NCBI GenBank assembly: GCA_958295805.1
Contig: OY282373.1
Coordinates: 405,001-469,000, forward strand
DNA from: an uncultured Nitrospirales bacterium
GTDB lineage: Bacteria > Nitrospirota > Nitrospiria > Nitrospirales > UBA8639
Length of the DNA stretch: 64,000 bases
Direction of reading: 5' to 3'
Position 1 is the stretch's first letter; each line of letters starts with the position of its first letter. Below are positions 18,301 through 56,413 of this stretch, one piece after another. A program made the position numbers and the translations under genes. The notes under the pieces were generated by a model, which ran no database searches, was not told the DNA's origin, and saw nothing but the letters and a program-made list of their open reading frames with translations.

Positions 18301-18861
18301 TCAGATCAAGGCGACGATGAGCGTGACGATTATGCCTCCTTGAGCGATCAGGGCGCCGAACATCCATTTCAGCAAGTCGGCCTTGAGGTTTGCGATATCG
18401 GCCTTGGTTTCTTTTCGCAGGACTTCAATATCCCGTTGGATGAGGGCAATGTCGGTCTTGGTGGCCTGCTGCAGGACTTCGATGTCGGTCTTGGTGGCCT
18501 GCCGCAGGGCTTCGATGTCGGTCTTGGTGGCCAGCCGCAGGGCTTCGATGTCGGCCTTGGTTTCTTTTCGTAAGGCTTCAATATCCCGCTGGATGAGAGC
18601 GATGTCGGTCTTGGTGGCCTGCTGCAGGGCTTCGATGTCAGTCTTGGTGGCCAGCCGCAGGGCTTCGATGTCGGCCTTGGTTTCTTTTCGTAAGGCTTCA
18701 ATATCCCGCTGGATGAGAGCGATGTCGGTCTTGGTGGCCAGATTGCTGTTGAGCAGGTTGACCTGCTCGTTCGCCAAGACCTCGGCCTGTTCCTCGGTGA
18801 ACCCGTGATCCGTCAGGTTTTTGACAAAGCGATGGGTGTCGAAGGCGATAGCTTCACTCAT
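18301..18861 (-). CDS. DUF1640-like coiled-coil membrane protein with tandem repeats
   Basis: 186 residues starting MSEAIAFDTHRFVKNL. The N-terminal ~45 residues and the C-terminal membrane helix (FGALIAQGGIIVTLIVALI) match the small DUF1640-like proteins at 46.7 and 47.3 kb of this window, but the middle is expanded. A 40-residue unit (11+11+11+7: DIEALRKETKA, DIEALRLATKT, DIEALQQATKT, DIALIQR) is repeated, giving a long hendecad coiled coil. At DNA level the 120-bp unit is identical over about 78 bases between 18541 and 18661, indicating recent expansion. Probably an oligomeric membrane-tethered rod; function unknown. Confidence 0.75.
   Translation of the reverse strand: MSEAIAFDTHRFVKNLTDHGFTEEQAEVLANEQVNLLNSNLATKTDIALIQRDIEALRKETKADIEALRLATKTDIEALQQATKTDIALIQRDIEALRKETKADIEALRLATKTDIEALRQATKTDIEVLQQATKTDIALIQRDIEVLRKETKADIANLKADLLKWMFGALIAQGGIIVTLIVALI
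18390..18740. repeat. Coding tandem repeats (120-bp period, 33-bp subunits)
   Basis: Blocks beginning GGCTTCGATGTCGGCCTTGG at 18541 and 18661 are identical for about 78 bases. Shorter ~30-33-bp subunits with CTTCGATGTCGGTCTTGGTG recur between them. They encode the hendecad coiled coil of the overlapping gene and are not a CRISPR array. Confidence 0.85.
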
Positions 18862-46470: not shown

Positions 46471-46694
46471 ACCGCCCGCGAAAACCGTCTTCACCCATTG
46501 AGCCTTGAACAACGAAGCGTCTGCCATTCCCGCGCCCGCGGAAATCCACGCGCCTTCTGTCCGATTGCCCGCTTTCTCAGCGCCCCCGAAGCGGGGACAA
46601 TTCGTCAGCAGTGTCCGCGAAGACGCTGACCAAACGCCGTCCGGGAACTGTATCATCTTGACACCGCGTAGGACACCAAGTAGCCTTCACTAAC

Positions 46695-46979
46695 ATGAGC
46701 ACCCTCATTTTTGACACCCACGAGTTTGTCACCGAGATGACCAATGTTGGAATGCCACAACCACAGGCTGAAGCCTTGGCCAAATCCCACGTGAAATTGA
46801 TGGAGAACACGTTAGCCACGAAGCAGGACTTGAAAGACCTCGAAGGCAGGCTAACCAGCGAGCTAACCAGCAAGATTGATAAAGCAAAAATCGAGATCAT
46901 CGGAATCATCACCGCGGTCATAGTTGGCTTGGCCGCGATCATGGCCTTCTTCATGGCCTACCTGCAAATCGCCAAATGA
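46695..46979 (+). CDS. DUF1640-like small coiled-coil membrane protein, copy 1
   Basis: 94 residues: MSTLIFDTHEFVTEM, a helix with PQPQAEALAKSH, a coiled coil (LATKQDLKDLEGRLTSELTSKI) and a C-terminal membrane helix (IITAVIVGLAAIMAFFMAYL). Related to mitochondrial CCDC90/DUF1640 proteins; function unknown. Duplicated at 47281-47553 and expanded at 18301-18861. Overlaps the following small gene by ATGA. Relative to copy 2 it has an extra four residues in the coiled coil. Confidence 0.75.
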   Translation: MSTLIFDTHEFVTEMTNVGMPQPQAEALAKSHVKLMENTLATKQDLKDLEGRLTSELTSKIDKAKIEIIGIITAVIVGLAAIMAFFMAYLQIAK

Positions 46980-47158
46980 AGCCCCGCAAACCAATCTTCA
47001 CCGAGCAAATTCACATCCGCCTTTCGCCCGCCGAGAAACACAAACTGCTTGCCCACGTCGAGAAGTTAGGGATGCCGTGGACGGTGTCGACGTGGATGCG
47101 CCGCGGCCCTCAAACAGACTTCCTAAGACCCGTCCTTGTCATGCTGAGCTTGCCCTGA
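46976..47158 (+). pseudogene. Small RHH-like protein, copy 1 with altered C-terminus
   Basis: Reads MKPRKPIFTEQIHIRLSPAE ... VSTWMRR as in copy 2, but an 11-base deletion just after the CGCCGC codons shifts the frame. The last ~17 residues (RPVLVMLSLP) are then encoded by the REP-like repeat. The ribbon-helix-helix-like part remains, so it might still fold; I list it as damaged by comparison with the intact copy. Confidence 0.6.
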
Positions 47159-47280
47159 GCCTCGAAGGGAAGAATCTCCGCCGCCGCGACGGCATGGGCC
47201 GAAATTAGCCATTGACCAAACGCCGTCCGGGAACTGTATCATCTTGACACCGCGTAGGACACCAAGTAGCCTTCACCAAC

Positions 47281-47553
47281 ATGAGCACCCTCATTTTTGA
47301 CACCCACAAGTTTATCACCAAGATGACCAAGGCCGGAATGCCGCAACCACAAGCCGAGGTCTTGGCGGAATCCAACGTGGAATTGATGGAGAACACGTTA
47401 GCCACGAAGCAGGACTTGAAAGACCTCAAAGCCGAGCTAACCAGCAAGATCGATAAAGCGAAAATCGAAACCATCGGAATCATCACCGCGGTCATGGTTG
47501 GCTTGGCCGCGATCATGGCTTTCTTCATGGCCTACCTGCAAGCTGCCAAATGA
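47281..47553 (+). CDS. DUF1640-like small coiled-coil membrane protein, copy 2
   Basis: 90 residues, the same layout as copy 1: MSTLIFDTHKFITKM, a shortened coiled coil (ATKQDLKDLKAELTSKI) and a membrane helix (IITAVMVGLAAIMAFFMAYL). Substitutions are mostly conservative, which suggests both copies were kept for some time. ATGA overlap with the next gene. Confidence 0.75.
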   Translation: MSTLIFDTHKFITKMTKAGMPQPQAEVLAESNVELMENTLATKQDLKDLKAELTSKIDKAKIETIGIITAVMVGLAAIMAFFMAYLQAAK

Positions 47554-47711
47554 AGCCCCGGAAACCAATCTTCACCGAGCAAATTCACATCCGCCTTTCG
47601 CCCGCCGAGAAACGCAAACTGCTTGCCCACGTCGAGAAGTTAGGGATGCCGTGGACGGTGTCGACGTGGATGCGCCGCGTCATGCTTGATGCCCTCAAGC
47701 AGACTTCCTAA
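47550..47711 (+). CDS. Small RHH-like protein, copy 2 (intact)
   Basis: 53 residues: IHIRLSPAEKRKLLAHVEKL, then GMPWTVSTWMRRVMLDALKQ. The short strand followed by two helices resembles a ribbon-helix-helix or MobC-like DNA-binding protein. It partners with the DUF1640-like gene it overlaps. The 3' end of the neighbouring IS30 transposase frame (minus strand) overlaps its last 17 bases. Confidence 0.6.
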   Translation: MKPRKPIFTEQIHIRLSPAEKRKLLAHVEKLGMPWTVSTWMRRVMLDALKQTS

Positions 47712-48837
47712 GACCCGTCCTTGTCATGCTGAGCTTGCCCTGAGCCTCGAAGGGCGAAGCGAAGCATCTCCTGAAAGTCCGGGATCCCGAAAAATTCGGT
47801 AAACGTGTCAGACGCATTGACACGGCGTCTTCAACATAATACCCCGCCATTGTGGATTCACATTTCAAGTGCAACACTTGGTGGATAAAAACCTCCGCGG
47901 GCGTGGCATACCCGAGGCACTTCCGCGGGGTGTGGTTGTACGCATGAACCAGGTGATGAAACCGCTGGTCGGAGAGGGTGGCCAGGTCGGTTTTGCGGGG
48001 GAGGGTGCGGCGCAGGCGGCCGATGGCGTTCTCGACGCCGCCTTTCTGCCAGGGGGCGTAAAGGTCACAGAAGAAGGTCTCGATGCCGAGAGCATGGAGG
48101 CGATGATGATAGGCGAATTCCGTCCCATTGTCGAAGGTGACGGTCTGGCGGCCGTGAGGGGGCATCGGGGTGAGGAGGTGGGTGAGGGCGTGGGCGATGG
48201 GGGCGGCGGCTTTGCCCGGGGGGCGCACGGCGAGGAGAAGGCGGGAGGTGCGTTCGTGGAGAGTGAGGACGGCTTGGCCGTAGGTGCGGAAGAGCATCAG
48301 ATCGGCTTCCCAATGGCCGGGAGTCTGGCGGTCGGCGGCGGCGGCGGGGCGCTCGGCGAGGGGGCGGCGGTGGGCCATCAAGGCGGCGGGGCTGCGGCGT
48401 TTGCGCCGGCGGCCGCGGGTGGCTTTGGCGTGAGGGAGATAGTGCCGCCAGGCATAGGTTTTCGTCCGGGTGATCTGAGCGTAGAGGAAGCGGTAGATGG
48501 TTTCGTGCGAGAGGACGGGGCGCCCGGCGTCGCGGGCGAGGCGGCCTGCGACTTGCTCGGGGGTCCAGCCCTGTTGGAGGTGGGTGAGGACTGTGGTGCG
48601 GAGGGGGGCATCGCGATCCAGCTTGGCCCCGCGCCACCGGCGGGCGCGGGCCTGCTGCTCGGCATAGCGGGGCTGGTAGCCCTCGGTGCGGGAGCGATTG
48701 CGCTTCATTTCGCGAGCCACGGTTGATGGCGGGCGATCCAGAGCTGCCGCGATTTGCCGGAGCGAGCGCCCGGCGGCGTATAGTCGGGCCATGTCACATC
48801 GGTCTTCCAGGGTGAGGTGGTGATAGTGGGTTCCCAT
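47695..48837 (-). CDS. IS30-family transposase
   Basis: 380-codon frame. The N-terminal HTH (LTLEDRCDMARLYAAGRSLRQIAAAL then PPSTVAREMKRN) binds the inverted repeats. The DDE core is visible: GHWEADLM (first D), TFDNGTEF (second D) and KGGVENAIGRLRR (E), with NHTPRKCLGYATPAE as the IS30 C-terminal signature. The element's own coding part ends in the left inverted repeat (VLHLKCES); no stop lies inside, so the last ~55 residues come from flanking DNA. GC-rich and otherwise intact, so possibly active. Confidence 0.92.
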   Translation of the reverse strand: MGTHYHHLTLEDRCDMARLYAAGRSLRQIAAALDRPPSTVAREMKRNRSRTEGYQPRYAEQQARARRWRGAKLDRDAPLRTTVLTHLQQGWTPEQVAGRLARDAGRPVLSHETIYRFLYAQITRTKTYAWRHYLPHAKATRGRRRKRRSPAALMAHRRPLAERPAAAADRQTPGHWEADLMLFRTYGQAVLTLHERTSRLLLAVRPPGKAAAPIAHALTHLLTPMPPHGRQTVTFDNGTEFAYHHRLHALGIETFFCDLYAPWQKGGVENAIGRLRRTLPRKTDLATLSDQRFHHLVHAYNHTPRKCLGYATPAEVFIHQVLHLKCESTMAGYYVEDAVSMRLTRLPNFSGSRTFRRCFASPFEAQGKLSMTRTGLRKSA

Positions 48838-50450: not shown

Positions 50451-51176
50451 TTACCAGCGATCCGCCAAGGTCTTGAGGCCATCAACGTCATCATAGAGCC
50501 GGGTAAAATCATCCCAGTCATGCCGCCGGTGGTCTTGCAGCGCCTGACGAATGCCGGCAAGAGATCGGTCGGTTTCTTGCTCAATCCGACTGACCACGTC
50601 CATTGACGACACGTACTCGTCTTGGCCGTGAAGCCACAGCAAACCGCGGAGGGTGCGGAGCAACCGTTCGGCCACGTCGCCCTCCATGGCGCCGAAGAGT
50701 TTTTCACGGCCTGCCGCGGCCAGGAGTCCCTGACGCATCCCGATGAGGATAGTTTTTAACTCACGCTCACATTGGAGGCGAAGGTGACGCTCGTCAAACG
50801 CAAGTTCCGTAAAATAATCGGTTCCCACGAAACACACGTGGCATTGGTGGATCTCCAACAACTCCAGAGGAAAGGCATCCAATGATCCATTGATGTAGAC
50901 GGGCGTCATAATCAGCGGCGCGGCAATTCTGGCTTTCCCGAGTTTCGCCCCATCCTTGGCCAACTCGCGCAACATGGCTAAATCAATCTTGTCCAGGACG
51001 ATGACGCTGCGGGCAATATGCTTCGCCGGATCAAACCCGGACGTGGCAATGGTCCCAAACCCGATTATGGCCAGACAATTCGACCCGGCGAGCGTCTGCA
51101 CCCGATCGAGATACTTCGTCAGCGGCTCCTGCATGTGATCGACCACATGGTCCATATTCATCATTGATGGGATCAT
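50451..51176 (-). CDS. Hypothetical cytoplasmic protein upstream of TPM/LemA genes
   Basis: 241 residues from ATG 51176. Reads LAIIGFGTIATSGFDPAKHIA, VIVLDKIDLAMLRELAKDG, then PVYINGSLDAFPLELLEIHQ. The fold resembles nucleotidyltransferase-like proteins in which an FP-E-x-x-E-I-H segment follows the core, but no GS-type catalytic triad is sure, so I leave the function open. Seven bases before the TPM gene, so probably the same operon. About 110 bp of its 5' end plus ~110 bp of upstream DNA are duplicated at 55022-55237, downstream of the autotransporter. Confidence 0.6.
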   Translation of the reverse strand: MIPSMMNMDHVVDHMQEPLTKYLDRVQTLAGSNCLAIIGFGTIATSGFDPAKHIARSVIVLDKIDLAMLRELAKDGAKLGKARIAAPLIMTPVYINGSLDAFPLELLEIHQCHVCFVGTDYFTELAFDERHLRLQCERELKTILIGMRQGLLAAAGREKLFGAMEGDVAERLLRTLRGLLWLHGQDEYVSSMDVVSRIEQETDRSLAGIRQALQDHRRHDWDDFTRLYDDVDGLKTLADRW

Positions 51177-51284
51177 ACGGTTGTTCTCCTGAATCCAAAC
51201 GTGCTTTGGAGAGAGGGTGAAAAAGAAGGTTGGACTGAACCGATGTGTCATTCAAGGCTAACGTACTACGTGACACCTTGCAAG
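51067..51284. repeat. Direct repeat flanking the autotransporter region, left copy
   Basis: Starts ATGGCCAGACAATTCGACCC and ends near CACCTTGCAAG. About 90% identical by eye to 55022-55237. Confidence 0.85.
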
Positions 51285-51919
51285 TTGTCCCGGATCGGAC
51301 GGATGTGAGACGGCAGCGTTGATAACGAAGAGGAATGTCTCTATATGTCTCAAGCATTTCGCACAAGGCGTTGAGTTGGGGGGGAAGGGTAAGCAACAGT
51401 GCTCAAAGTCGTCAGAGTCTTGTCAGCCCAACGGCTTGAGAGCCGCAAGAATTGTTGAGAAAAAGTCAATTGTCAAAGTGAAGGGTGATGTGTTAAAAGG
51501 CTTCGCTCTTATCCTAATGCACCCGTGACGTGGGCCGTCGGCTAGGCGCGGGCGTTGCCCGGAGGGCGCCGCCGGTGCGGCTGGAACGGATGGAACAATC
51601 ACAAATGTATGGCGGCGGCAGCATCGTAGGGCGCCATCTCATGGCGCTTGGTTTCCAGGCAACACAAGGGTTCCAAGGCCGCATGAGATGCGGCCCTACA
51701 TTTGTAGGCGCCTGGTTTTCTTTTCGCCATGTCCGCGCAGATCCCCAAGACGCATAAGGTAAGGAGAGGAAACATGCTGTCTCGCATCGTGCATTTTTTG
51801 TCCCATGTCTCGACGGATGAGCCGTGCTGCACGTGCAGCACGGCCGAAAGAGGAAAACTCCCGCACCACCACGCCTCTCGTTCTCGTAGGGTGGGGGGGG
51901 TAATGCAAGGCAAGCAACA
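51285..51919. other. Upstream region of the autotransporter gene
   Basis: No supported gene. It contains GCAACAGTGCTCAAAGTCGT at about 51391, which recurs (as GCAACAGTGCTGAAAATCGT) across the autotransporter start at about 51912. It also contains two palindromes of the ATGAGAT family: GCGCCATCTCATGGCGC (51631-51647) and GGCCGCATGAGATGCGGCC (51677-51695). Confidence 0.6.
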
Positions 51920-54900
51920 GTGCTGAAAATCGTCAGAGTCTTGTCAGTTAGGTTCGTGGTGACTGTGACGGTGGCAGTGGCTTTATCTGCTTGTGGCGGA
52001 GGCGGAGGAGGAATCCTGCCACCGAGCCCCCCCGGCCCCGCCGACCCCCCCGACGCCCCCGAACCTCCTGACACCCCCAATCCCCCCGGCTCCCCCAATC
52101 CCCCCGGCCCCGCCAATCCCCCCGGCCCCGCCGCCCTGCCCCCTCCAAATAGCGTGGTAGTGGCGCCCGTGATGAACAATCTGGTGGTCACGTGGGTGGC
52201 CGTGACCGGCGCGACTAGCTACAAGGTGCAGTGGAAGTCGGGTACGGAGGCTTGGAGCACGAGCCGGCAGCAAACCGTGCCCGGGATGAGCACGGCCTAC
52301 ACGATCCCCAGTCTGATGGCCAGCACGCAGTATACGGTTCGGGTGATCCCGATCGGGAGTTCCGGTGACGGGACGGCTTCGCGGGAGGTCATGCGTATGA
52401 TTTCCCCGAGCCCGCCGGCCCCGGTGGTACCGCAGGCACTGCCCCCGCCAAATATCGTGAAAGTGGCGTCCGGGCTGAACAGTGGGGTGGTCAATCTGGA
52501 GGTCACGTGGGCGGCCGTGAGCGGCGCGACCGGCTACAAGGTGCAGTGGAAGTCGGGTTCGGAGGCTTGGAGCACGAGCCGGGAGCAAATCGTGACCGGT
52601 ATGACCACCACGGCCTCCACGATTCCCAATCTGATGACCAGCACGCAGTATACGGTTCGGGTGATCCCAATCGGAAGTTCCGTTGACGGGACGGCTTCGC
52701 GGGAGGTCATGCATATGTATATGACGGATTCTCGCAGCAATGTTCGGACGCCCCGTTCCGGGGAAACCTTGGAGCCGACCAACCCGCGCATGAAGAGTTC
52801 CTGGGAGACCACGGAATACCGCGAATCTAGCGCGTTGCCGTTGATCAACGCCAGCACGGGCTATGCGGCGCGCACCACGGGCAATCCGGGCGGGGGCGGT
52901 ATCACCATCGCCATTCAGGATGACCAGATCGAATTCGCCCACCCCGCCCTTGACGGGACGACGGTCACCATTGGCCCCTGGCGCGCCGGCCGCGACGCCG
53001 ATCATGGAACACAGGTCGCCGGCGTTGCCGCCGGCCGGCGCGACGGCCAGCACATGCACGGGGTCGCCTACAACGCGAACATCGTGTGGATACGGGGAAT
53101 GGACGCCGGGGGATGGGGCCTGGAGGCCGCCCTTGCATCGGCGTCGGGTCTGACGGGGACGTTCAGCTATCCCGAGCACGGCGGCGGCGGGTTCACCTAC
53201 ACGGCCGACCCCGCCGCCAGCGCCCACATCGTGCTCCCCTCCTATGTTTACAGCAATGTAGACCCCCCGGCGCGGCGCGAGGCCATTTTAAGGGGCTTGC
53301 GGCTGGCGGCCGGACGGGGCCGGATCATCGTCTCCCCCGCGGGGAACTCCGAGGGCACGGTGCCTGTCTACCCGGGCAGGCTGTTCGCGGAGGAGGGGGT
53401 TGCCGGGTTCGGCATTGTGGCCACGGGCCTGAACGAGGACGGCACAGGCTTTGCGGCTTTTGCCAACCAGTGCGGACCGGTCAAGCAGTATTGCCTGATG
53501 GCGCCGGCAGAGAGCGTCTATACGTCCATCGGCCTATATATCAACAGGATCCTCCCCTCCCTCCCCCCATATGCAGCCGCTACCGGCACGTCTTTTTCCG
53601 CCCCTGCTACGGGCGGCGCGGCGGCGGTGCTGTGGGCGGCGTTCCCCAACAAAACCGCGAGCCAGATCGTTGACCGGCTGCTGACGACGGCGCGGCAGAT
53701 CGACGCAGCGAACTGCAACTATGACTCGACCGGCGTGTCCGCCAAATGCGGCCACGGCGCCCTCGATCTCGGCGCGGCGATGAACCCGGTCGGCTTCACG
53801 AGCATGGCGCTGCCCGGCGCGGGCTTGGTCCCGGTGCATCACAGTTACGTCAACCTGCCGCCGGGCTTCCGCGCGCCGACGAACGCGGGCCTGGCCAACG
53901 CGATCGTGTACGACGAACAGATGTTTCCGTTCTTGCACGATCTGAACGGCGCCTTCCGGGTCTATCAGGCGCCGCTTGCGGATAGCGCGATGCGCGGATT
54001 CCTGTCGTCGTTCGGCGATGCGGTGTGGGCTGTGCCGCTGGGGCAAAAGGCGGCGGTCGAGTTTGCGCCGGACACCGCGGCGTTTTTTCGGGCTCGGACG
54101 GCTCGGGATGCGGGCGTGGTGCGGAACTATCGGCTGTACGTTCGGCCGCTGCCGGACGTGCGGCTTGCTCTCGGCCAGGGATTCGGGTCGGTCGGGGGGG
54201 CGTCGAACCATTTCATCACGAAGCGGACGAGCCGGGCTCTCTTTCAGGACGGGCTGACGGTCAGTCCGTTTATGGCGTTCACCGGGCGGGGGCCGAGTCT
54301 GAGCATGGACTGGCAGATGGATGACGAGACGGTGGTGGACTTTGTCGGGAAGGACGGGACGGACTATTTCGGCGTGACGAGTGCCCGGCTGGCCTCGGTG
54401 GGGCTGACGCGGCGGCTGGGGCAGGGGTGGACCGTGGGGATGCGCTACGGGGGGCTTTGGGAGAGCGGCTCGGTTCTGGGCATCCGGGGGCAAGGCGCGT
54501 TCCGGGGCTTTTCGGAGGCAGGGACGGAGTTTTTCGACATCAGTGTTGAAAGCCGGCTGTGGGAGCGTCTGAGCGTGTTTGGGAGCCTGAGTCGCGGGCG
54601 GACTCGGGGAGGATCGGGCGGGGCTGGCTCGCTGGTCTCCGGCTGGAGCGGGGTGCGGACGGGGTCGGTCATGGTGGGCGTCGAACTGGGGGGGCTCTGG
54701 TTCGGGTCGGATCGCCTGATTCTGACGGCGGCGACGCCGTTTCGGGCGCGCGGGGCGACGGTCTACGTGAACGTGCCGAGTCGGGAGATTGCCGATGGGG
54801 TGGTGGAATACACGCGCCATGCCGTGGATGTGACGCCCCAGGGACGGGAACGCCGGGTGCAGGTGGTGTACGAGGTGAGCAGCGGGCGGGCCGCGTCGGT

Positions 54901-55120
54901 TACCGTGGGCGGATACCTGCGCAGCAACCCCGAGCACGACGCTGCGGCCGAATCGGAATTCGGCGTAGCCTCACTCACCTCTCTGCCCCCGAGGCGGGCT
55001 GCCCAGGGAATGCCCGCGGTCATGGCCAGACAATTCGGCCCGGCGAGCGTCTACCCGATCGAGGTACTTCGTCAGCGGCTCCTGCATGTGATCGACCACG
55101 TGGTCCATATTCCTCACTGA
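51920..55120 (+). CDS. Subtilase (S8) autotransporter with two fibronectin-III domains
   Basis: 1,066 residues from GTG 51920. A lipoprotein-like signal (VTVTVAVALSAC) precedes a poly-Gly then Pro-rich stalk (about 25-75), two near-identical FnIII domains (ATSYKVQWKSGTEAWSTS and ATGYKVQWKSGSEAWSTS), and a subtilisin domain. The triad is Asp in ITIAIQDDQIEFAHPAL, His in DADHGTQVAGVAAG and Ser in GTSFSAPATGG, with Asn in SPAGNSEG. A beta-barrel (about 690-1020) should insert in the outer membrane. Its C-terminus is odd: after SEFGVASLT the frame runs into the right flanking repeat (MARQFGPASVY...HIPH), so the last barrel strand and aromatic end residue seem lost. Very GC-rich compared with neighbours, which suggests transfer. 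Confidence 0.85.
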   Translation: MLKIVRVLSVRFVVTVTVAVALSACGGGGGGILPPSPPGPADPPDAPEPPDTPNPPGSPNPPGPANPPGPAALPPPNSVVVAPVMNNLVVTWVAVTGATSYKVQWKSGTEAWSTSRQQTVPGMSTAYTIPSLMASTQYTVRVIPIGSSGDGTASREVMRMISPSPPAPVVPQALPPPNIVKVASGLNSGVVNLEVTWAAVSGATGYKVQWKSGSEAWSTSREQIVTGMTTTASTIPNLMTSTQYTVRVIPIGSSVDGTASREVMHMYMTDSRSNVRTPRSGETLEPTNPRMKSSWETTEYRESSALPLINASTGYAARTTGNPGGGGITIAIQDDQIEFAHPALDGTTVTIGPWRAGRDADHGTQVAGVAAGRRDGQHMHGVAYNANIVWIRGMDAGGWGLEAALASASGLTGTFSYPEHGGGGFTYTADPAASAHIVLPSYVYSNVDPPARREAILRGLRLAAGRGRIIVSPAGNSEGTVPVYPGRLFAEEGVAGFGIVATGLNEDGTGFAAFANQCGPVKQYCLMAPAESVYTSIGLYINRILPSLPPYAAATGTSFSAPATGGAAAVLWAAFPNKTASQIVDRLLTTARQIDAANCNYDSTGVSAKCGHGALDLGAAMNPVGFTSMALPGAGLVPVHHSYVNLPPGFRAPTNAGLANAIVYDEQMFPFLHDLNGAFRVYQAPLADSAMRGFLSSFGDAVWAVPLGQKAAVEFAPDTAAFFRARTARDAGVVRNYRLYVRPLPDVRLALGQGFGSVGGASNHFITKRTSRALFQDGLTVSPFMAFTGRGPSLSMDWQMDDETVVDFVGKDGTDYFGVTSARLASVGLTRRLGQGWTVGMRYGGLWESGSVLGIRGQGAFRGFSEAGTEFFDISVESRLWERLSVFGSLSRGRTRGGSGGAGSLVSGWSGVRTGSVMVGVELGGLWFGSDRLILTAATPFRARGATVYVNVPSREIADGVVEYTRHAVDVTPQGRERRVQVVYEVSSGRAASVTVGGYLRSNPEHDAAAESEFGVASLTSLPPRRAAQGMPAVMARQFGPASVYPIEVLRQRLLHVIDHVVHIPH
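52150..52730 (+). repeat. Duplicated FnIII-coding segment
   Basis: Two copies about 300 bp apart, sharing for example AAGGTGCAGTGGAAGTCGGG (52227 and 52539) and ACGGTTCGGGTGATCCC. The high DNA identity points to a recent internal duplication. Confidence 0.8.
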
Positions 55121-55237
55121 TGCGGTCATCCGGTTGTTCTCCTGAATCCAAACGTGCTTTGGAGAGGGCGAAAAAGAGGGGTGGACTGAACCGATGTGTC
55201 ATTCAAGGTTAACGTAGACTACGTGAAACTTTGCAAA
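55022..55237. repeat. Direct repeat flanking the autotransporter region, right copy
   Basis: Starts ATGGCCAGACAATTCGGCCC. Same orientation as 51067-51284; its first ~100 bases form the 3' end of the autotransporter frame. Confidence 0.85.
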
Positions 55238-55423
55238 CGAGAAAATCGAGACCGGCGGGCAAGTGTGGCCGTCGTGTCGCTGTTTATTGTCAGACAATGT
55301 TCAAGGGCTTATACTTCAGAACCGAAAAACTGGAATCTGCTGTAGAACAAGATTATCGACTGTGAGAGCGACTCTCCACGAGACCAAAAGCGCCTCTGAA
55401 GCTACATTGAGGAAGTCATCGGC

Positions 55424-56413
55424 ATGAGAATAGGTACGGTCTCTGATTACGCTTGTTACGTGCCTCGTGCGGTCGCCGGTCTGAAAAACCCGCAAACTGA
55501 CGTTCCTCGCATTGCAAAAGACAAACGGCTCTTCAAGCAAATAGAAACGGCAGTCCAGCAAATCCCGACGACACACCGAGTCGTCCAGGGAGATGCACGC
55601 GACCTGACGTTTCTCGAAGATGAATCAATTCATGTAGTCGTAACGTCCCCGCCGTACTGGACCTTGAAAAAGTACAAAAATCACATTGACCAGCTTGGGA
55701 GCATCGAAAACTATGAAACATTTCTTCGTGAACTCGACAAAGTCTGGGCGCACTGTCATCGCGTTCTGGTCCCGGGAGGACGATTGATTTGTGTGGTCGG
55801 CGACGTCTGCTTATCACGAAGGAAGAACGACGGGAGACACACGGTCGTTCCACTTCACGCCTCTATTCAAGACCACTGTCGAGAAATTGGTTATGACAAT
55901 CTGGCACCGATTATCTGGCACAAGATTGCTAACGCCGCGTTTGAGGCCTCCGGCAATGGTGCGGGTTTCTTGGGGAAACCGTATGAACCCAATGCCGTGA
56001 TAAAGAACGACATCGAGTTCGTCCTGATGCAACGCAAACCGGGTGGATACCGGAAACCTGCACTGGCCACGCGAGTGCTGTCCGTCATATCGGATGAAAA
56101 CCATAAACAATGGTTTCAGCCAATCTGGTCCGGTATCACCGGCGCATCAACCCGACTGCACCCCGCACCGTACCCCGAAGAACTCGTCGAACGTCTGGTT
56201 CGGATGTTTTCCTTCGTAGGGGACACGGTGTTGGATCCCTTCATGGGAACGGGCACGACCACGGTTGCCGCGGCAAAATGGGGACGAAACTCCATTGGCG
56301 TAGAAATTGATCCGCAGTATTGCGAAATCGCGGAAAAACGGATTCGCCACGCAACGGGTTCGTTGTTCTCTTCCGCCGAACTTCATCCCGCAAGTTGCGG
56401 CGCCATACTCTGA
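55424..56413 (+). CDS. DNA methyltransferase (amino-methylating, TSPPY type)
   Basis: 329 residues. Catalytic motif IV TSPPYW appears early (VVVTSPPYWTLKKY) and the AdoMet-binding motif I late (DPFMGTGTT), the beta order of motifs. HRVLVPGGRLICVVGDV lies between. TSPPY enzymes methylate the exocyclic amine of adenine (N6) or cytosine (N4); the target specificity cannot be read. A second methyltransferase follows 45 bases downstream, and a decayed gene converges from the other side, suggesting a former restriction-modification locus. Confidence 0.9.
   Translation: MRIGTVSDYACYVPRAVAGLKNPQTDVPRIAKDKRLFKQIETAVQQIPTTHRVVQGDARDLTFLEDESIHVVVTSPPYWTLKKYKNHIDQLGSIENYETFLRELDKVWAHCHRVLVPGGRLICVVGDVCLSRRKNDGRHTVVPLHASIQDHCREIGYDNLAPIIWHKIANAAFEASGNGAGFLGKPYEPNAVIKNDIEFVLMQRKPGGYRKPALATRVLSVISDENHKQWFQPIWSGITGASTRLHPAPYPEELVERLVRMFSFVGDTVLDPFMGTGTTTVAAAKWGRNSIGVEIDPQYCEIAEKRIRHATGSLFSSAELHPASCGAIL

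Follow-up and report, generated by a model that had tools for sequence, protein, structure and literature searches.

From two Helicobacter pylori genomes, Nobusato et al. (2000) described insertion with long target duplication, which, in the passages of PMC1643837 and PMC3031569 that treat it, is often tied to restriction-modification genes; autotransporters are not among the subjects of these passages. The locus described here brings such an insertion geometry together with a surface protease whose best solved relative is 8e7f (E 6.8e-17), the Serratia marcescens subtilase autotransporter Ssp, in a study that also gives NalP and SphB1 as lipidated (PMC9977779). We analysed a window of 64,000 nucleotides (G000:C1:405001-469000) from a Nitrospirales genome that is assembled as one contig of 2,904,372 bases.

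Direct repeats around the gene and the empty site in congeners

The left direct repeat (51062-51284, + strand) consists of the first 115 bp of gene X, which encodes a conserved protein on the opposite strand (50451-51176, - strand), and of 108 bp upstream of it, and thus has the composition that the first-pass annotation had given it. The right repeat, now decayed, lies in the same orientation at 55017-55237 (+). Both copies measure ~220 bp and are ~91% identical with several indels, and a search with bases 51020-51280 against the 2.9-Mb genome gave one hit besides the query itself, namely the right copy (91% across bases 48-261 of the query, E 9.5e-80), so that the earlier description of an autotransporter between direct repeats of one orientation holds. 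Between the repeats lies an inserted segment of ~3.73 kb (51285-55016, +) with one large gene, and the last 46 bp of the segment (54971-55016, +), which separate the last homologous codon of the gene from the right repeat, are a filler without a second copy in the genome or in the relatives' loci compared. Gene X matches no Pfam family above cut-off; it has a 31% identical paralogue in a 305-residue frame at C1:1506176-1506739. To the right of the insert stands the original neighbour of X, a DNA methyltransferase gene (55424-56413, +; N6_N4_Mtase 1.5e-40), preceded by its likely promoter, TTGTCA-17 nt-TATACT at 55287-55315 (+), which is conserved in the five congeners described below. A scan for promoters and terminators gave 2 and 3 sites, respectively, where chance alone would give 1.2 and 3.7, and it is for this promoter alone among the scanned sites that conservation adds support. 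Rfam gave 0 matches up to E 0.5 across 51000-55500. Elsewhere in the window, and outside the insert, there is an IS30-like transposase gene (47695-48837) adjoined by a ~585-bp unit with a small frame in two copies (46627-47754, 91-98% identical), and tandem-like direct repeats at 18386-18811 comprise a 153-nt stretch five times at 61-100% identity.

We searched 58 relatives for gene X and compared all loci with a match, which were found at E 3e-83 or better in 20 of the 58 (13 congeners and 7 genomes of the same family). In 5 of the 13 congeners (L076, L078, L079, L080, and L085), X stands directly divergent from a methyltransferase gene that is 82-85% identical to the one at 55424, with 256 to 608 bp between the two matches, one copy of the repeat region, and no insert; the other 8 have no methyltransferase match in the stretch examined. 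The alignment places both edges of the insertion: Agreement of the left copy with the congeners ends after TTGCAAG, at 51284, and the right flank of the window continues their intergenic sequence with GAGAAAA and then the methyltransferase promoter. The DNA of the right copy was matched in ten relatives' loci, each time within the stretch that the left copy matches as well. None of the 20 loci gave a protein match to the autotransporter at E 1e-5; 2 of these loci are uninformative for the insert because they reach just 26 and 311 bp upstream of X. Genomes with a single repeat copy and no segment, which the first-pass annotation had suggested looking for among strains, thus exist among congeners (sampled as one genome per species), and their uninterrupted arrangement of X and methyltransferase bears out its proposal of a cassette insertion. 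We infer from the empty site that ~3.73 kb entered with a target duplication of ~220 bp.

The same five congeners served as outgroup to ask which copy is old, using alignment columns up to 51280. Among 22 differing columns, some of which are neighbours that represent one event, the change could be assigned to the right copy in 11 and to the left copy in 4, with 7 unclear. The right copy also bears a 2-bp deletion in what was formerly coding sequence of X; both bases are present in 5 of 5 congeners. Judged from this alignment, the right copy is a decaying duplicate. The deletion shifts the reading frame of the autotransporter's tail too, so that this tail would no longer be the one that the insertion created, provided that the two copies were the same at the outset.

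The large gene, its clipped end and its leader

The large gene (51920-55120, +) encodes a lipoprotein-type S8 subtilase of 1066 residues with a clipped, presumed autotransporter barrel. Its protein starts with a putative lipobox (LSAC followed by glycines from residue 22 on, read by eye), continues with a proline-rich stretch built of 9-nt repeats, two fn3 domains (Pfam fn3, 1.8e-12) and the S8 subtilase domain (Peptidase_S8, PF00082, 3.9e-20), and ends in the presumed barrel. The contexts of D334, H362, and S558 agree with S8 motifs, and we take these residues to be the catalytic ones. The fn3 domain has been duplicated internally (52177-52717, +), with direct repeats of 117 and 109 nt that are 91% and 93% identical. 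Among the full relatives found, the closest is an 837-codon frame of a Rhodospirillales MAG (L027, JAPPHR010000120.1), 45% identical at the protein level and 49% over the barrel region; congeners reach 32-33% over the S8 part, and of 395 genomes searched across the phylum, 30 had matches, none closer than L027.

That the C-terminal region is an autotransporter barrel is presumed from its homology to the corresponding region of L027, L097, and L071. The autotransporter family PF03797 has no match to the window gene and 14 elsewhere in the genome (13 over cut-off), and barrel families likewise had no match in L027 or in four S8 relatives of the genus and family. Structure prediction gave no usable model of either the window barrel or the L027 barrel (mean pLDDT 29.1 and 30.6).

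To define how such proteins end, we considered the six relatives that resemble full autotransporters. Over the barrel region, domain E-values are 5.5e-179 for L027, 2.1e-16 for L097, 4.8e-6 for L071, and a weak 0.11 for L098, while L095 and L096, whose matches extend to residues 673 and 634, were included on account of their length and ending. Left out were frames with the S8 region only, of shorter or other build and with other endings (e.g., L061, L062, L065, L074, and L105-L124), frames running off their locus (e.g., L064 and L072), and duplicate entries for one gene. All six, as well as a remnant with a frameshift at C1:817.9 kb of the window's own genome (L030; end PEFGAAAKMRWRF), finish in phenylalanine with the pattern EFGAAAKxRxRF; the natural end of L027 is PEFGAAAKIRARF, its complete end also being given as ...EFGAAAKIRARF. 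The window protein instead runs through SEFGVA into ~16 filler residues and then 33 residues encoded by the repeat, 49 residues past the last position that matches a relative, and its final HIPH lacks the terminal aromatic residue. The first-pass annotation was right that the frame enters the right copy, and its count of ~32 repeat-encoded replacement residues is amended by the filler that precedes them.

Since the six relatives end in phenylalanine and the window protein departs after EFGVA, the comparison supports a loss of the barrel's last ~7 natural residues, including the final phenylalanine and most of the terminal strand, as the earlier reading of an overwritten barrel end had it. Homologues with the window protein's C-terminus at other loci, named there as the observation that would speak against this, were not seen among the relatives found. 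In the standard view, the assembly signal of such a barrel sits in its last strand, and barrel assembly of the clipped protein would probably be impaired. According to PMC10945584, which cites Celik et al. 2012 and Cox et al. 2010, however, 473 of 1511 autotransporters have such a motif in an internal strand and none at the C-terminus.

The start of the gene carries a second, nested duplication. A 39-bp repeat, which the first-pass annotation had noticed as a smaller repeat spanning the gene start, is present at 51388-51426 (+) and 51909-51947 (+) with 92% identity; the left copy carries a second gene start and the right copy the present one. Between them lies a leader block (51421-51902, +) that is common to two further loci of the genome, at C1:1474977-1475455 (92%), upstream of a giant surface frame named Calx-beta-like by eye, and at C1:54693-55076 (71%), upstream of sequence that looks repetitive and coding, again by eye. 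Neither of these two copies has a bracketing direct repeat, and the first 189 bases of the leader, compared with 40 relatives apart from the own genome, gave two marginal matches only. In the simplest reading, a second, smaller insertion with target duplication probably placed the leader before the gene.

Two smaller elements lie within or at the edge of the leader. A small frame at 51774-51926 (+; MLSRIVHF...PCCTCST...HHHA) overlaps the gene start and recurs in both other leader copies (L028 and L029); it has a good ribosome-site-like sequence, and its copies differ by whole codons. We rejected it as a conserved regulator because good matches are confined to the three copies of its own genome (E 1e-28 to 3e-10); a fourth place in the genome and 14 other genomes reach just E 0.003-0.09. 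At 51620-51707, a palindromic repeat (GTAGGGCGCCATCTCATGGCGC ... GCATGAGATGCGGCCCTACA), which is also found in L029, L032, L033, L034, and L036, has many copies in the genome with clusters near C1:41-43 kb, 2624-2628 kb, and 2632-2634 kb, and may be a MITE- or REP-like element.

Origin, age and route of the insertion

The first-pass annotation had also proposed the acquisition of a GC-rich gene, which the composition does not support. The large gene has a GC3 of 0.81, two native giant surface frames have 0.87 and 0.88, and the leader has a 92% copy in its own genome; among the neighbours, the 58300 gene has 0.78, the IS30-like transposase gene 0.77, and five others 0.56-0.67. Because native giant frames are equally GC-rich, composition gives no sign of foreign origin and was discarded as proof of it, but the gene may still be foreign, since the closest relative found is from a Rhodospirillales MAG. 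Simple relocation from C1:817.9 kb was rejected as well: The remnant at that place has a frameshift and shares a 94-bp overlap with the present gene at 81% identity, which makes it a separate paralogue. This remnant (L030:5880-6110) is the end of a second autotransporter of the same type, and IS30-like transposase frames lie in its vicinity. At C1:2134466 (L004), 1473293, 665790, and 72745, the genome has very long open frames of 13364, 9287, 9184, and 6251 residues, respectively, that contain or adjoin autotransporter- or fn3-like matches.

Identity is 90-93% throughout, between the two long repeats, between the 39-bp copies, between the leader and its closest copy, and between the fn3 units, which is suggestive, though no more, of a locus assembled in one period. 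As to selection, the 1017 codons that have stayed open would do so under neutrality with P = 0.0002-0.0009 when indels are included and ~0.05 for substitutions alone, an estimate that is based on 6 substitutions and 2 indels and is invalid if the right copy arrived already diverged. The frame is thus open for longer than the decayed repeat predicts, which would mean either that an internal assembly signal suffices and the clipped protein works or that the clipping came late. This long open frame argues for constraint, while the fn3 pair, with dN 0.106 and dS 0.098 over 86 codons (0.194 and 0.216 over 101), has dN about equal to dS and fits no constraint. The gene may be a neutral pseudogene, which the fn3 ratio would fit, or may be under constraint, as a frame open against the odds would suggest.

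We consider it probable that one ~3.7-kb insertion made the ~220-bp duplication and clipped the gene at its right edge, and that a nested 39-bp event added the leader. A single event would have duplicated ~220 bp of the site between X and methyltransferase, either by repair or template switching, with synthesis returning to the chromosome upstream of its exit point, or by fill-in of a long staggered break. Its right edge would have cut the autotransporter ~7 residues before the natural end, and a smaller event of the same shape would probably have put the leader in front. Neither neighbour was damaged, because X and its upstream DNA are intact at the left copy and the methyltransferase promoter is retained in the right flank. 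A mobile element or composite transposon was tried and rejected, since the ends of the inserted segment have no inverted repeat of 20 nt or more, Pfam finds no transposase domain in the large gene, and the duplication is long.

The order of events and the source of the right copy could differ from this, in that the duplication could have come before the insert or the right copy could stem from donor DNA. The open frame bears on the first of the alternatives that we weighed, in which a complete gene was inserted and a later deletion took its end, the downstream DNA, and part of the right repeat: 1017 codons are open although the right repeat has decayed, and the 46-bp filler is without another copy. 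We nevertheless find such a two-step course rather unlikely, as no relict of the lost end or of the downstream DNA was recognised, the open-frame estimate draws on the few changes named above (6 substitutions and 2 indels), and a single event explains the edge more simply. It seems doubtful, too, that donor DNA already joined a piece of X to the autotransporter and entered by single-crossover integration or homology-facilitated illegitimate recombination, which would make the right copy a donor allele. Copies that differ by ~9% might well be alleles of different strains, and one-ended homology with an illegitimate join is described in PMC3240628 and PMC2884548; however, the junction of the gene with X was not seen in the 20 relatives' loci, and the concentration of changes on the right copy together with its frame-breaking deletion looks like decay in place and not like a functional donor allele.

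Other duplications nearby, namely the fn3 pair and the pair at 46627-47754, could suggest that a tandem duplication of the repeat came first and that the segment was inserted or assembled between the two copies afterwards, but this demands an extra step and an insertion exactly at the copy junction, and no congener locus has a tandem copy, so that we give it very little credence. Misassembly is more improbable still: Misjoins do occur at repeats such as those on both edges, but the assembly consists of a single contig, and the two copies are set apart by ~9% divergence with several indels. Starting from the preferred single insertion with its nested event, one could go further and propose that the clipped chimera is still exported and selected by way of an internal assembly signal, in a lineage that moves surface genes and leaders by repeated insertions with long target duplications (~220 bp with the nested 39 bp), but we regard this extended proposal as a long shot.

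Comparison with known systems

With Ssp, NalP, and SphB1, the window protein shares an S8 domain, a putative lipobox (read by eye here, NalP and SphB1 being lipidated), and the order of a passenger followed by a presumed barrel. In contrast to them, it has two fn3 domains in front, no match to a barrel family, and a replacement of its last ~7 residues; a tail made of filler and of residues read antisense to X is unlike S8 subtilase autotransporters. We have therefore filed it as a clipped derivative of these proteins and not as an intact member. The Rhodospirillales relative L027 resembles it in the putative lipobox, the glycines, the proline repeats, the S8 domain, and the 49% identical barrel region, but differs by having no fn3 domain according to Pfam, a complete end, and no direct repeats of at least 60 nt in its 14.2 kb. 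Such repeats are likewise absent around the genes of L095, L096, L097, and L098; L028 has many of them within its own repetitive coding sequence. If the clipped protein is exported, it would be a natural test of barrel assembly without the terminal strand, and if it is not, the locus would illustrate that an insertion edge can break a gene yet leave its frame open.

The geometry of the locus, as far as sequence can tell, fits insertion with long target duplication, a known mode of gene movement in bacteria. As in the H. pylori case, a segment is present in one genome, a relative has the flank once, and the flanks of the segment are long direct repeats, which at ~220 bp are far longer than the target duplications of transposons. 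The cargo here, by contrast, is a surface protease gene and not a set of restriction-modification genes, with the methyltransferase gene figuring only as an old neighbour; the copies are ~91% identical, and the comparison is with congeners instead of strains. The locus would thus represent this mode of insertion for a surface-protein gene, outside Helicobacter and restriction-modification genes and with a documented empty site.
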